Source: Dehalococcoidia bacterium
GTDB lineage: Bacteria > Chloroflexota > Dehalococcoidia > Bin125
Direction of reading: 5' to 3'
DNA length: 64,000 nt
Assembly (NCBI GenBank): GCA_022826965.1
Contig: JAJDTU010000005.1
Location: forward strand, 1 to 64,000
The notes under the pieces were generated by a model. That model had not been told where the DNA came from, did no database searches, and saw nothing but the letters and a program-made list of their open reading frames with translations. The translations under genes were made by a program, and so were the position numbers. Positions 629-5,883 of the stretch are shown here, in pieces (position 1 is the stretch's first letter; the number at the start of each line of letters is the position of its first letter).

Positions 629-2197
629 ATGACATCACTCCGCACCCTCGCCGTCGGCGCCCTCCTCGTCTTCTTCAGTGCGCTCGCATTCGCCTGCGCG
701 TCGGAAGACGACCCAGAGCAGCAGGCAGCCGCGCAAGCGGTGGAGCAAGATCAGCCGGCCGAACCGGGACAACAACAGACGGTCGAGATCAGGTCACGAG
801 ACACGGATCAGCAGGAGCGGAGCAGCACGGGAGGTTCGGTCGAACAGCAGCAGGAGGCCGAGCAAGCGCAGGCAGCGGCGGACACCACATCAAGCGATCA
901 GCAGCACGAACAGCAGCAAGGCCGGCAACAAGGCCAGCAGCAGGGCGAGCCTCAGTCGTCCGCAGGGCAGGCGCAAGCGGACGCGCCTGAGCAGCAGGCG
1001 GAGGCTCAATCGGTCCAGCAAGAGCAGCCTGAACAGTCGCAGTCAGAGGCGCAGCCGGAAGCGGAACAGGAGCAAGAGCAGACCGCCCAATCTGCCGATC
1101 CGCCCCAACGGGACCAGCTGACCTTGCGAGCGGAAGAGATCCGCGCCCAGGCGACCGCGCCGGAGCTGACGGGCCTGAACGGCTGGCTGAACGGCGAGGA
1201 AACCTTGATCGCACTCGAACTGGCCAAGGGCAATGTCGTTCTGATCGATTTCTGGACCTACACCTGCATCAACTGCGTGCGGACCCTGCCGTTCCTGACG
1301 TCCTGGGACCAGAAGTACCGCGACCACGGTCTCGTCATCATCGGCGTGCATACGCCCGAGTTCGCGTTTGAGGAGCGGGTTGAGAACGTCCGCACCGCGA
1401 TTGCCGAGCATGACATCGAGTATCTCGTCGCCATCGACAATGACTACCAGACCTGGCGCGCGCTGCAGGGACGCCGCGGATGGTGGCCCCGGAAGTTCCT
1501 GATCGGACCGACCCCAGACGGATCGCCCATGGGTGTCCGCTACGACCACATCGGCGAGGGCGACTACGAAGAAACCGAAGTGGCCATTCGGGCGGCGCTC
1601 GAGGCAGTGGGCAAGGACTTGTCCGACGTCCCTTTCGGCGTTGATGTCGCGGTGCCGACCAGAGGCGCCACGCCCGGTCGGCAAACCCGAGAACTGTACG
1701 CCGGCTGGAGTCGGAACAACGGCGGGGGCGGTCCCTACGCCGGACAGGAAGCCTATTTCCTGGCCGGTCCTGGAATCCCCACCTTCTACACCGATATCCC
1801 GTCCGCGCAGCGCCAACACAACCTGTGGTACCTGCAGGGGGTCTGGGAGACTGATCGCGAGTCGATCGTCCATGCCCGAGAGACGAATGACCTTGAGGAT
1901 TACATCGCCCTCCTGGTCCGCGGCCGGACGGCCAACGTCGTCCTGACCGTCGCCGAGGACGGCGAGCCGTTCAACGTCTACGTCGAACTGGACGGGAACT
2001 GGCTGCAGCGCGACGAGGCCGGCTCCCACATCCAGTGGGACGACGAGGGGCGTTCCTACATCCGCGTGACCGAGAATGACCTGTACCGCCTCGTGTTCCT
2101 GCCCGAGTGGTCGGAGCATGAGCTGAAACTGAGTTCCAACTCAGACCAATTCCGAATCTTTGCGTTCACGTTCGGCTCATACGTCGGCGGCGAGTAG
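629..2197 (+). CDS. Exported Q/E-rich thioredoxin-fold protein (DipZ C-terminal-like)
   Basis: Predicted envelope thiol-disulfide protein of 522 residues. An N-terminal hydrophobic signal (residues 1-23, ending AFAC, a weak lipobox) is followed by about 130 residues of Gln/Glu/Ala-rich low-complexity linker. A redoxin domain (about 180-330) has the active site Cys213-Ile-Asn-Cys216 in the context DFWTYTCINC, typical of the DipZ/TlpA-like branch. The C-terminal 170 residues resemble the beta-rich 'thioredoxin-like C-terminal' domain found behind the DipZ redoxin domain. The membrane electron-donor domain of full DipZ (CcdA-like) is absent, so the reductant must come from elsewhere. A similar linker-plus-thioredoxin lipoprotein follows 50 bases downstream, suggesting one transcription unit. 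Confidence 0.85.
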   Translation: MTSLRTLAVGALLVFFSALAFACASEDDPEQQAAAQAVEQDQPAEPGQQQTVEIRSRDTDQQERSSTGGSVEQQQEAEQAQAAADTTSSDQQHEQQQGRQQGQQQGEPQSSAGQAQADAPEQQAEAQSVQQEQPEQSQSEAQPEAEQEQEQTAQSADPPQRDQLTLRAEEIRAQATAPELTGLNGWLNGEETLIALELAKGNVVLIDFWTYTCINCVRTLPFLTSWDQKYRDHGLVIIGVHTPEFAFEERVENVRTAIAEHDIEYLVAIDNDYQTWRALQGRRGWWPRKFLIGPTPDGSPMGVRYDHIGEGDYEETEVAIRAALEAVGKDLSDVPFGVDVAVPTRGATPGRQTRELYAGWSRNNGGGGPYAGQEAYFLAGPGIPTFYTDIPSAQRQHNLWYLQGVWETDRESIVHARETNDLEDYIALLVRGRTANVVLTVAEDGEPFNVYVELDGNWLQRDEAGSHIQWDDEGRSYIRVTENDLYRLVFLPEWSEHELKLSSNSDQFRIFAFTFGSYVGGE

Positions 2198-2247
2198 CGT
2201 TGACATGTCTGGACCGGTACACGAGGACCGATCGAGCGAGGGGTTCC

Positions 2248-3489
2248 ATGGCTTCACTTCGTAGCAATCCGCGGCTGAGCCGCTGGCGGCGACCGCTGGT
2301 ACTGTCGGCGCTCGCGGCCGCGACCGTCCTGATGTTGACGGCCTGCGCCACAACGTCCGATGACCAGCAGCAAGAGCAGCAACAGCAGACTCAACAGGAG
2401 CAGACGGCGGCCGCAGCAGATTCGTCTTCAGCAGGCACGACCAGTTCCGGCTCCACCACCGCCACGGCGCCGCAACGCACAACCGAGCGAGCCGCCGAAC
2501 CGGCCGAACAAGCGCAGCAACAACAGATGGTTGCCGAGGCTGCTCAGGAGCAGCAGTCTCAGGGCGACGCAATGCAGGAACAGCAACAGGACGACGACGG
2601 CATGGGCGGTATGTCGCCGGGCATGTCGGTCGGCATCCTCACCGAGGCCAACTATGACGACCTCAGCCCCAGGCTGCAGCTGCTGCGCGATTCCGGCTAC
2701 CCCGTCTACGTCTCCGAACAGGGCTACACGATCGCCCTCGGCACCCCCGACCTGTCGCCGGGGATCCACCGCATCTCGATTGTGATTGAGGGGCCGGAGG
2801 GCCTGGTCGAGTCGCCGGCCATGAGAATCACGGTCGTGCCGGCAGATGCTCCGGGCGAGATGGAAGAGGTGGTGGCTCGGTTCTCACGCTTCCCCGACGG
2901 CGTTCGCGGGTTCCATGTCACCGCGGTCGACTTCGCGACAGTGGGCCGCTGGAACCTGATCCTGCATATCCCGTCCGCGGACGGCTTCACCGACGTCGGG
3001 ATCGCAGTCGACATCCCGCTCGACACCCTGGCGCCGTCGGTCGGCGACGCGGCGCCGGCATCGGCCAGCCGCACCCTGCTCGACGTGCCCAACATCTCCG
3101 ACCTCTCGACCGGCGACGAGCCCGATCCCGGCCTCTACATCATCTCCCTCGCCGACGCTGTCGACGCGGCCAAACCGTTCGTCGTGGTCTTCGCCTCGCC
3201 CGGCTTCTGCACCAACGCCTTCTGCGGACCGCAGGCCGAGGTGCTGTCGGAAGTGCGCACCCTCTTCGGCGACCAGGCCAACTACATCCACGTCGACCTC
3301 TACGAAAACCCCGAGCAGGTGCGTTTCGGCGAGGAGCCGATCGAGACCCCGCTCCTTGAGGAATGGGGTCTGCACACCGACGAGTGGACCTTCGTCGTCA
3401 ACGCCGACGGCATCGTCGTTGCCCGCTTCGAAGCCTTCGCTCCCCTGGCCGAGGTCGAGGCGGCCCTGGCCGCCGTGCTCGAGGGCTAA
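2248..3489 (+). CDS. Lipoprotein with Q-rich linker and thioredoxin-like domain (CxxxxC)
   Basis: Lipoprotein of 413 residues. I chose the ATG at 2248 (preceded by GAGGGG) over an upstream in-frame TTG at 2200. The signal peptide ends in the lipobox LTAC, followed by a Gln-rich disordered stretch. A beta-rich middle region (SPGIHRISIVIEGPEG...) comes next, then a C-terminal thioredoxin-like fold with FASPGFCTNAFCGPQ. Here the two cysteines are separated by four residues rather than the usual two. Such proteins probably act in envelope thiol chemistry or metal delivery; no specific substrate can be assigned. The stop codon overlaps the stop of the convergent sulfurtransferase gene. Confidence 0.75.
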   Translation: MASLRSNPRLSRWRRPLVLSALAAATVLMLTACATTSDDQQQEQQQQTQQEQTAAAADSSSAGTTSSGSTTATAPQRTTERAAEPAEQAQQQQMVAEAAQEQQSQGDAMQEQQQDDDGMGGMSPGMSVGILTEANYDDLSPRLQLLRDSGYPVYVSEQGYTIALGTPDLSPGIHRISIVIEGPEGLVESPAMRITVVPADAPGEMEEVVARFSRFPDGVRGFHVTAVDFATVGRWNLILHIPSADGFTDVGIAVDIPLDTLAPSVGDAAPASASRTLLDVPNISDLSTGDEPDPGLYIISLADAVDAAKPFVVVFASPGFCTNAFCGPQAEVLSEVRTLFGDQANYIHVDLYENPEQVRFGEEPIETPLLEEWGLHTDEWTFVVNADGIVVARFEAFAPLAEVEAALAAVLEG

Positions 3490-4340
3490 TCGTCCGGCGT
3501 CTCGATTGGCTGGTCTAGCGCGTTGCCGTACTCGTGCCAGGAGGCGTCGTAGTTTCGGCTCTGGTTGTAGCCGAGCAGTTGCAGGAGCCAGTATCCGTGC
3601 GCCGCACGGATGCCGCCCTGTCAATACGTGGTGACCGTCTTCTCCGGCGTAATCCCGAGGTCGGCGAGCATCGCGCGCAGCTCGGCCGGCGGCTTCAGCG
3701 TCCGCACCGGGCTGTCGAGCGTGTGCAGCCACTCCAGATGCACGGCGCCGGGGATCCGTCCGCCACGTTGCGTGCCGCGCTTGTTCGCGCCAGTCCATTC
3801 GCCATCCGAGCGCACATCCCAGAACACATGGTTCTCGTCCTCAAGTGCGCCCGGGATGTCGTCCAGCCGGCAAATCGAGTCGTCATGCGGCGCTGCAGGC
3901 GTGGGGTACTCAACCGCCTGCGGGCGATAGTTGTCCCGCGACAGCGGACGCCCCTCGGCGTACCACTTGTCCAGCCCGCCGTGCAAAATCTTGAAGTTGG
4001 TGTGGCCAAAGCGATCAAACGTCCACCACACGCGGGCTGCGTAGAGCGAGCCCGATCCGTCATAAGCCACGACCGTCGTATCCGGAGTGATGCCCATCCG
4101 GCCCACGAGTCCGGCCCACGCTTCGGGATCGGACATGCCGTAAATCTGCGAGTCGTCGCGTGGATCCGTCTTCCAGTAGCGCGACAGCGACCACACCGCC
4201 CCGGGGATGTGCAGGCGGAGATACGCGTCCAGCCGATCGCAGTCCAGGACCACGACGTCATCGTCGTCGATGTGCTCCGCGAGCCAATCCGTCTCGCAGA
4301 TCAGTTCCGGCCGCACCCAGCCGTCACCTGAAGTCGTCAT
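3486..4340 (-). CDS. Two-domain sulfurtransferase (rhodanese) with UGA (Sec240) at the catalytic Cys
   Basis: Thiosulfate/3-mercaptopyruvate sulfurtransferase with an in-frame UGA at 3621-3623, codon 240, in the context TTY-U-QGGIRAAHGYW. The family active-site loop is C-(R/Q)-x-G-x-R, so the UGA replaces exactly the persulfide-forming cysteine. Forty-five further codons follow without a stop and carry the conserved end of the second rhodanese domain (LLGY...NYDASWHEYGN). Total length is 284 residues, normal for the family. The ATG at 4340 is preceded by GGGAGGGAA; an upstream TTG lies in the ribosome-binding site. A perfect 8-bp hairpin begins 9 bases after the UGA. The S41 protease gene ends 55 bases upstream, so the two may be co-transcribed. 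Selenocysteine is inferred; a plain nonsense mutation would not explain the intact downstream domain. Confidence 0.88.
3593..3611 (-). promoter_or_regulatory. bSECIS-like hairpin behind the UGA codon of the sulfurtransferase
   Basis: On the coding strand ATCCGTGC-GGC-GCACGGAT forms a perfect 8-bp stem with a GGC loop. The loop begins 17 bases after the UGA and starts with G. CAGG and CCTG outside it can add a lower stem. These features meet published descriptions of bacterial SECIS elements (apical loop about 16-37 nt from UGA, early G in a small loop). Confidence 0.75.
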
Positions 4341-4395: not shown

Positions 4396-5883
4396 CTACT
4401 CCTCTGAGTCTTGCCCTGAGTTCTGCTGCGGCTGCGAATCCTGTTCGTCGCTCGCAACGTCGCGGGGCTCGGATTCGGTCGAACCGCTCGAACCCGACGG
4501 GTTGTACTCGCCTCGCAGGTATTCGATCGCGACGTACAACTGGATGTCCTGTCCGGCCTCGAAACCCGTGTCCGGGATCGCAATCTCGATGTCCGGCGCG
4601 ATACCGACCCCCTCAACCTGCGCGTTGTTGGGAGTCAGGTAGCGGGCGATGCTGACATACAGGACGCTGCCGTCCGACAGGCGGCGCGGCACGTTGACCG
4701 TGCCTTTGCCTGTCGTGGTCACGCCGATCAGCACAGCCCGACCATGGTCGCGCAGCGCAGCCGCCATCACCTCGGCGCCCGACGCGCTGTGCTCGTTGAT
4801 CAGGATCACCAGCTCGAGGTCAAGGCCCGCTCCGCCGGCGCGGTCGTTGAATACCTCTTCCTCGCCGTCGCGATTGATCTGGCGCAAGACCACGCCTTCG
4901 TCCATAAACTCGCCGGTCGTCTCAACGGTCGCCCGCAGCAGACCCCCCGGATTGCCCCGCACGTCCACGATCAGCTTCTCCAGACCCGCGTTGCGAGCCG
5001 AATCAAGCAACTCGAGCAACTCCCCTCGCGTCTCCTCGGTGAACTGGGAGATCAGGATGTAGCCAATGTCGGCAACAGGGTTCCCCGCGCGATCGCTGAT
5101 CGGCAGCGACTCGACGCTCGGCACCACAATCCGATCACGCGTCACGACGATCAGCTCCTCCTCGCCGTCGGAGTGGCGAACAAGCAGCTCGACATCGGTC
5201 CCCTTGGGACCGCGAATCACGGCGACCGCTTGCTCGAGGCTCCATCCCTCCGTCGACTCCCCGTCCACTTCAAGGATGATGTCACCCGGTCGGATGCCCG
5301 CCTGTTGCGCCGGTGAGTTGCGGAACGGACGAACGATCACGATCGCTCCGTCCACCGAGTTCACGGTCGCGCCGATTCCTTCAAACGAGCCGCCGATGTC
5401 TTCGCTGGCCAGCCGATAGCGCTCGGCGTCGATAAACACCGTGTGCGGGTCGTCCAGTGCAGTCAAAATGCCGTCGATCGCCGCCTGGCGGGCGTCGAGC
5501 GCCTCGAATCTCGCCGGCTCGACGAAGTCCTTGTCCAGCACCTCCACGATTTCATCTAGCAGCGCGAAGCGGGACAACCGACCGTCCGGGACCGCCACCG
5601 CGTCATCGTCCTCATCACCATCGTCTGACGGTTGTACAACCGCCGGAACGGCGCCTGGTGAGGATCCGTCCCGTGAACTGCGCAGCAGCCTGCCGTAATC
5701 GTCTTCGGCGTCGATCACCCGCATGGCGCCGACGCCCAGTGCAAACGCCGCACCGATCATCACGAAGACCAACAACAGAATGGACCAGCGGCTGGGACCG
5801 CCGCCGCCATCACCTGTGTCCGGAACGAATGCGCGCTGGCCTGAATCGCCGCTCGATGGCGGCTCCCATCGAAGTTCTGACAT
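4396..5883 (-). CDS. S41 family carboxyl-terminal processing peptidase
   Basis: Membrane-anchored serine protease of the CtpA/Prc group, 495 residues. Residues 33-54 form a single transmembrane helix, which places the rest outside the membrane. A PDZ domain at about 165-245 (GIRPGDIILEVDG) is followed by the S41 catalytic core, with NEHSASGAE holding the nucleophile region and TTTGKGTVN the general-base lysine. The usual SASASE is SASGAE here. An N-terminal proline/glycine-rich cytoplasmic tail and a C-terminal Ser/Glu/Gln tail flank the core. GGAGAGG lies 11 bases before the ATG. It processes or degrades envelope proteins from their C-termini. The sulfurtransferase gene follows on the same strand. 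Confidence 0.9.
   Translation of the reverse strand: MSELRWEPPSSGDSGQRAFVPDTGDGGGGPSRWSILLLVFVMIGAAFALGVGAMRVIDAEDDYGRLLRSSRDGSSPGAVPAVVQPSDDGDEDDDAVAVPDGRLSRFALLDEIVEVLDKDFVEPARFEALDARQAAIDGILTALDDPHTVFIDAERYRLASEDIGGSFEGIGATVNSVDGAIVIVRPFRNSPAQQAGIRPGDIILEVDGESTEGWSLEQAVAVIRGPKGTDVELLVRHSDGEEELIVVTRDRIVVPSVESLPISDRAGNPVADIGYILISQFTEETRGELLELLDSARNAGLEKLIVDVRGNPGGLLRATVETTGEFMDEGVVLRQINRDGEEEVFNDRAGGAGLDLELVILINEHSASGAEVMAAALRDHGRAVLIGVTTTGKGTVNVPRRLSDGSVLYVSIARYLTPNNAQVEGVGIAPDIEIAIPDTGFEAGQDIQLYVAIEYLRGEYNPSGSSGSTESEPRDVASDEQDSQPQQNSGQDSEE

Follow-up and report, generated by a model that had tools for sequence, protein, structure and literature searches.

An in-frame UGA, predicted to encode selenocysteine, at the catalytic position of a two-domain rhodanese from a Dehalococcoidia bacterium

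A gene for a selenocysteine (Sec)-containing, COG2897-like two-domain rhodanese is predicted on the minus strand of a Dehalococcoidia contig, at positions 3486..4340 of the window (the whole stretch of 64,000 nucleotides that was analysed), and comprises 284 residues followed by TAG. Comparison of sequences strongly supports the decoding of its in-frame UGA as Sec. The original prediction of a Sec rhodanese is thereby upheld on three grounds, namely the presence of sel genes in the genome, the exchange of Cys and UGA among relatives, and a conserved hairpin. The fuller reading, in which the hairpin directs Sec decoding and sulfur would be transferred through the selenol of the C-terminal domain, is considered likely.

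The frame begins with ATG and runs from 4340 to 3486 on the minus strand, with GGGAGGGAA upstream of the ATG as read from the sequence. It contains one TGA (3623-3621, residue 240) in the context TTY-U-QGGIRAAHGYW. The UGA at 3621-3623 had been claimed to fall exactly on the Cys of the rhodanese loop, and this is borne out by the frame and by alignment with the Thermus rhodanese 1uar, the nearest solved structure by sequence (E 1.6e-42), in which the loop Cys aligns with residue 240. Relatives and the 1uar alignment together assign the TGA (3621..3623, minus strand) to the catalytic Cys column, where it is predicted to be read as Sec. The frame was also said to stay open for 45 codons after the UGA; it does stay open, but that count includes the stop, and 44 sense codons precede the TAG at 3488-3486. 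The N-terminal rhodanese domain (3954..4292, minus strand; PF00581, 61.4 bits) has, as read from the sequence, an Asp (AYDGSG) at the catalytic Cys position, and the C-terminal catalytic domain (3522..3848, minus strand; PF00581, 50.1 bits) spans the TGA, with one TGA inside the match. Two domains with the active residue in the second are the arrangement of the two-domain rhodaneses (COG2897/SseA), and the predicted fold is secure from homology in sequence to rhodaneses of known structure. NCBIfam holds no dedicated model for this protein; only the models for 3-mercaptopyruvate sulfurtransferase, ExtH and MoeB were matched, all below their cut-offs, the first of these (NF008557) with 108.6 bits against a curated cut-off of 250. 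Classical rhodanese loops are RKGVT for thiosulfate and G[ST]GVT for mercaptopyruvate, and the loop QGGIR fits neither.

Matches to the rhodanese at 1e-40 were found in 194 of the 393 genomes of the class that were surveyed. Exactly one TGA is present in 13 of 13 other matched members of the genus (88-92% identity) and in 5 of 5 other matched members of the family (61-80% identity). Those genus-level relatives that carry a name are metagenome assemblies of Dehalococcoidia/Chloroflexota. No rhodanese match was obtained from one further member of the genus, an assembly of 290 contigs that is 88% complete. A codon-level reading of the catalytic site in 71 loci gave TGA in 53, TGC or TGT in 18, and TAA or TAG in none; the alignment of homologues that had been suggested as a check thus shows Cys and UGA swapping at exactly the column of residue 240. 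A quick tree of 73 rows (the 71 loci and two Cys paralogues) requires nine changes between Sec and Cys, and at least seven are forced by its well-supported branches. Among 14 sequences of the genus, the part before the TGA has a dN/dS of 0.059 and the part after it, with the hairpin region left out, one of 0.064, which means equal purifying selection on both sides. An assembly error, with TGA in place of TGC or TGT, would require a single base change in what is a draft genome of 14 contigs, and a true nonsense mutation in a pseudogene is the other conceivable origin of this kind. However, the same TGA recurs in independent assemblies (13 from the genus, five from the family and dozens of distant genomes) and purifying selection continues downstream of it, and such an origin of the TGA is vanishingly improbable. 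Outside the class, other Chloroflexota (G493, G570 and G577) also have matches that contain a TGA somewhere along their length. A rhodanese from SAR324 (L068, JAPUJL010000117.1) also has TGA at the catalytic column; the usual hairpin is absent there, no selB over the cut-off was found in that genome, and the assembly may be incomplete or there may be some other cause. Two rhodanese matches, G486:C213:13387-14226 and G605:C169:8330-9166, have TAG and TAA, respectively, somewhere inside the match. The viral contigs scanned contained no relatives.

The source genome (3.0 Mb, 14 contigs, 97% complete, draft) was searched for selA, selB, tRNA-Sec and selD, as the original prediction had advised, and all of these were found. 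selA (522.9 bits), selD (351.9 bits) and selB exceed their curated cut-offs, and tRNA-Sec (70.2 bits) was confirmed by ARAGORN with the anticodon TCA. selB lies on the same contig as the rhodanese, about 430 kb off, and selA, selD and selC are located elsewhere, on other contigs. An in-frame TGA also interrupts the selD gene (L011, G000:C12:264989-265930), in the motif CGG-U-GSK, and the SelD of this genome is probably itself a selenoprotein. Among the matches listed, selA was detected in 64 of 68 Sec-type versus 52 of 68 Cys-type genomes (254 of 393 overall), the two lists being hand-read and relatedness not removed. The four Sec-type genomes without selA are 71-91% complete, and one of them (G356) has selB over the cut-off. 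Because relatedness confounds this co-occurrence and the query is less closely related to the Cys genomes, it is weak, supporting evidence.

A bSECIS element is a hairpin just after the UGA with a small loop that contains G and lies about 16-37 nt away. The bSECIS-like hairpin of the rhodanese gene (3593..3611, minus strand), assigned from its fold and conservation, has the sequence ATCCGTGC-GGC-GCACGGAT at 3611-3593, with a perfect 8-bp stem and the loop GGC at 3603-3601, 17 nt after the TGA; the spacer between TGA and hairpin is nine bases (3620-3612). Stem, loop and spacing agree with the earlier description of a perfect 8-bp hairpin with a G-starting loop nine bases behind the UGA. Folding of the 43 nt that follow the TGA gives -20.8 kcal/mol (z -3.3), and 0 of 200 shuffles were equally stable. 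A scan of the window found 264 in-frame TGAs with open flanks, 21 of which, the rhodanese TGA included, have a stem of at least 7 bp at a loosely suitable distance. The other 20 frames with TGA and hairpin were taken, by eye, as noise. Such a hairpin alone is not rare, and it is comparative evidence among sequences that puts the rhodanese hairpin beyond chance. Of the 53 Sec genes, 41 retain the complete inner 7-bp stem, as against 0 of the 18 Cys genes; these counts, like those for single pairs and codons below, come from related sequences and are not independent events. Under synonymous recoding with the codon usage of these genes themselves, the corresponding values for a 7-bp stem are 1.0% and 0.6%. 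The full 7-bp stem is missing in the remaining 12 Sec genes, mostly by the outermost pair. Stem pair 12-26 is C-G in 44 Sec genes, G-C in four and A-T in two, which is compensatory change, and the loop is GGC in 48. For the Arg encoded within the stem, CGT is used by 50 of the 53 Sec genes and by 1 of the 18 Cys genes, and it makes up 10% of Arg codons elsewhere in these genes. The conserved residues GIRAAH account for part of the hairpin conservation, and the synonymous control corrects for them. Across 14 sequences of the genus, positions +3 to +9, in the hairpin, are each occupied by a single codon, their synonymous sites being frozen, and nearby codons vary synonymously, which points to coding sequence with an RNA element superimposed on it. 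The proposed bSECIS check turned out in favour of Sec: a loop 17 nt from the UGA, conserved with covariation in the UGA genes, and a hairpin absent from the Cys genes.

The open frame through the TGA would also be expected if UGA stood for another amino acid, by general reassignment or near-cognate read-through. Against this, TGA also acts as a stop codon here. It closes 16 of the 40 long open reading frames taken from the window, which for the most part do not overlap and are not established as genes, and it is likewise the stop of several sister rhodanese genes, downstream of the Sec codon. The presence of tRNA-Sec and selA/selB, the restriction of the hairpin stem to UGA genes and the fact that the alternative residue is always Cys argue in the same direction, and such a reading of UGA is extremely improbable.

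In rhodaneses, the loop Cys attacks a sulfane-sulfur donor, and the sulfur is kept as a persulfide and then passed on; with Sec in place of the loop Cys, the intermediate would be a selenosulfide. In the proposed mechanism, the UGA would be read as Sec through SelA, SelB, tRNA-Sec and SelD, with decoding directed by the hairpin nine nt downstream. The N-terminal domain would, like that of other tandem rhodaneses, have no catalytic activity, and the selenol of the C-terminal loop (U-Q-G-G-I-R) would take sulfane sulfur from a donor, for which thiosulfate, 3-mercaptopyruvate or a persulfide are candidates. The sulfur would be held as a selenosulfide on Se and then handed to a thiol acceptor, possibly a thioredoxin-like protein, one or two of which are encoded next door. 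The fold and the position of the Sec suggest this transfer via a selenosulfide.

The gene upstream of the rhodanese (4396..5883, minus strand) encodes an S41 (CtpA-like) protease with a PDZ domain and is retained beside the rhodanese within the genus. Convergent with the rhodanese, on the plus strand, are a gene for a thioredoxin-fold protein (629..2197; Redoxin/AhpC-TSA and Thioredoxin_10) with a CINC motif and a lipoprotein-like gene (2200..3489) without Pfam match, whose product has a Cys pair in its C-terminal GFCTNAFC and whose last 4 bp are shared with the end of the Sec gene. These three genes adjoin the rhodanese in 13 of 13 genus loci and in the family member L064. The more distant loci, where flanks are short, are without that gene order, and at one of them (L047) a relative of the thioredoxin-fold protein is nearby. 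A thiol peroxidase or selenosulfide reductase built on the rhodanese fold, partnered with the neighbouring thioredoxin-like proteins, would suit the conserved thioredoxin-fold neighbour and the fact that Sec is commonest in redox enzymes (PMC9312934), but the domain layout and length are wholly rhodanese-like, and this function is unlikely.

A role mainly in selenium handling, in which reduced selenium would be bound on Sec and given to SelD in place of sulfur transfer, is also quite improbable. Rhodaneses are discussed as selenium carriers, and the probable Sec in SelD itself would suit such a role; however, the rhodanese is not linked to the sel genes, which are on other contigs or, in the case of selB, about 430 kb away, and Cys versions with the same fold occur in genomes without detected selA. 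The more specific proposal, that a dedicated selenium-handling rhodanese feeds SelD with reduced selenium bound to its Sec and thereby makes the Sec pathway reliant on one of its own products, is very doubtful. Sulfur transfer through Sec remains the preferred reading. The source genome also encodes two Cys-type two-domain rhodaneses, one with the loop CGGGIA (L115, G000:C7:72066-72875) and one with CRIGER (L110, G000:C13:340854-341624), so the Sec enzyme would be one of several tandem rhodaneses. A four-domain rhodanese protein with a 562-residue frame was also observed (G000:C12:201415-202836). The gene offers a clean case of lineage-wide Sec/Cys exchange in a sulfurtransferase, and because both versions exist in related genomes, with Cys paralogues in the same genome, any advantage of Se in sulfur transfer would be directly measurable. 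In a large group of Chloroflexota, Dehalococcoidia among them, standard gene callers would truncate the Sec rhodanese.

A Sec rhodanese of COG2897/SseA was reported in 2005 from the Sargasso Sea with a predicted SECIS (PMC1088965), again in 2008 from GOS as cd01449 (PMC2398784), and a COG2897 Sec rhodanese was listed in 2022 (PMC9312934). A 2026 review recognizes five rhodanese-like forms, with the motif UxxG in forms 2 and 4; for form 4, whose example is MCY3690685.1, its table cites the reference that it also gives for its other Sargasso Sea families (PMC13188914). A search of the literature on Sec rhodaneses in SAR202/Chloroflexi found no devoted paper. The present gene shares U-Q-G-G, which fits UxxG, and Pfam PF00581 with form 4, and motif and domain suggest that it belongs to the same family as the published examples (MCY3690685.1, MQG53192.1 and AACY01016424). 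It has in common with the published COG2897 Sec rhodaneses, which are marine, the COG2897-type rhodanese, the in-frame UGA and the predicted bSECIS. Those entries are metagenome fragments or single examples, whereas the present gene comes from a near-complete genome with Sec machinery and has class-wide relatives. The Cys-type tandem rhodaneses, such as Thermus 1uar and the E. coli 3-mercaptopyruvate sulfurtransferase 1urh, have the same domain layout and catalytic column, but the loop of 1uar is CRIAER with Cys and that of the present gene UQGGIR with predicted Sec. Overall, Sec rhodaneses have been catalogued since 2005, and the present gene is therefore a well-supported addition to a kind of enzyme that was already known.
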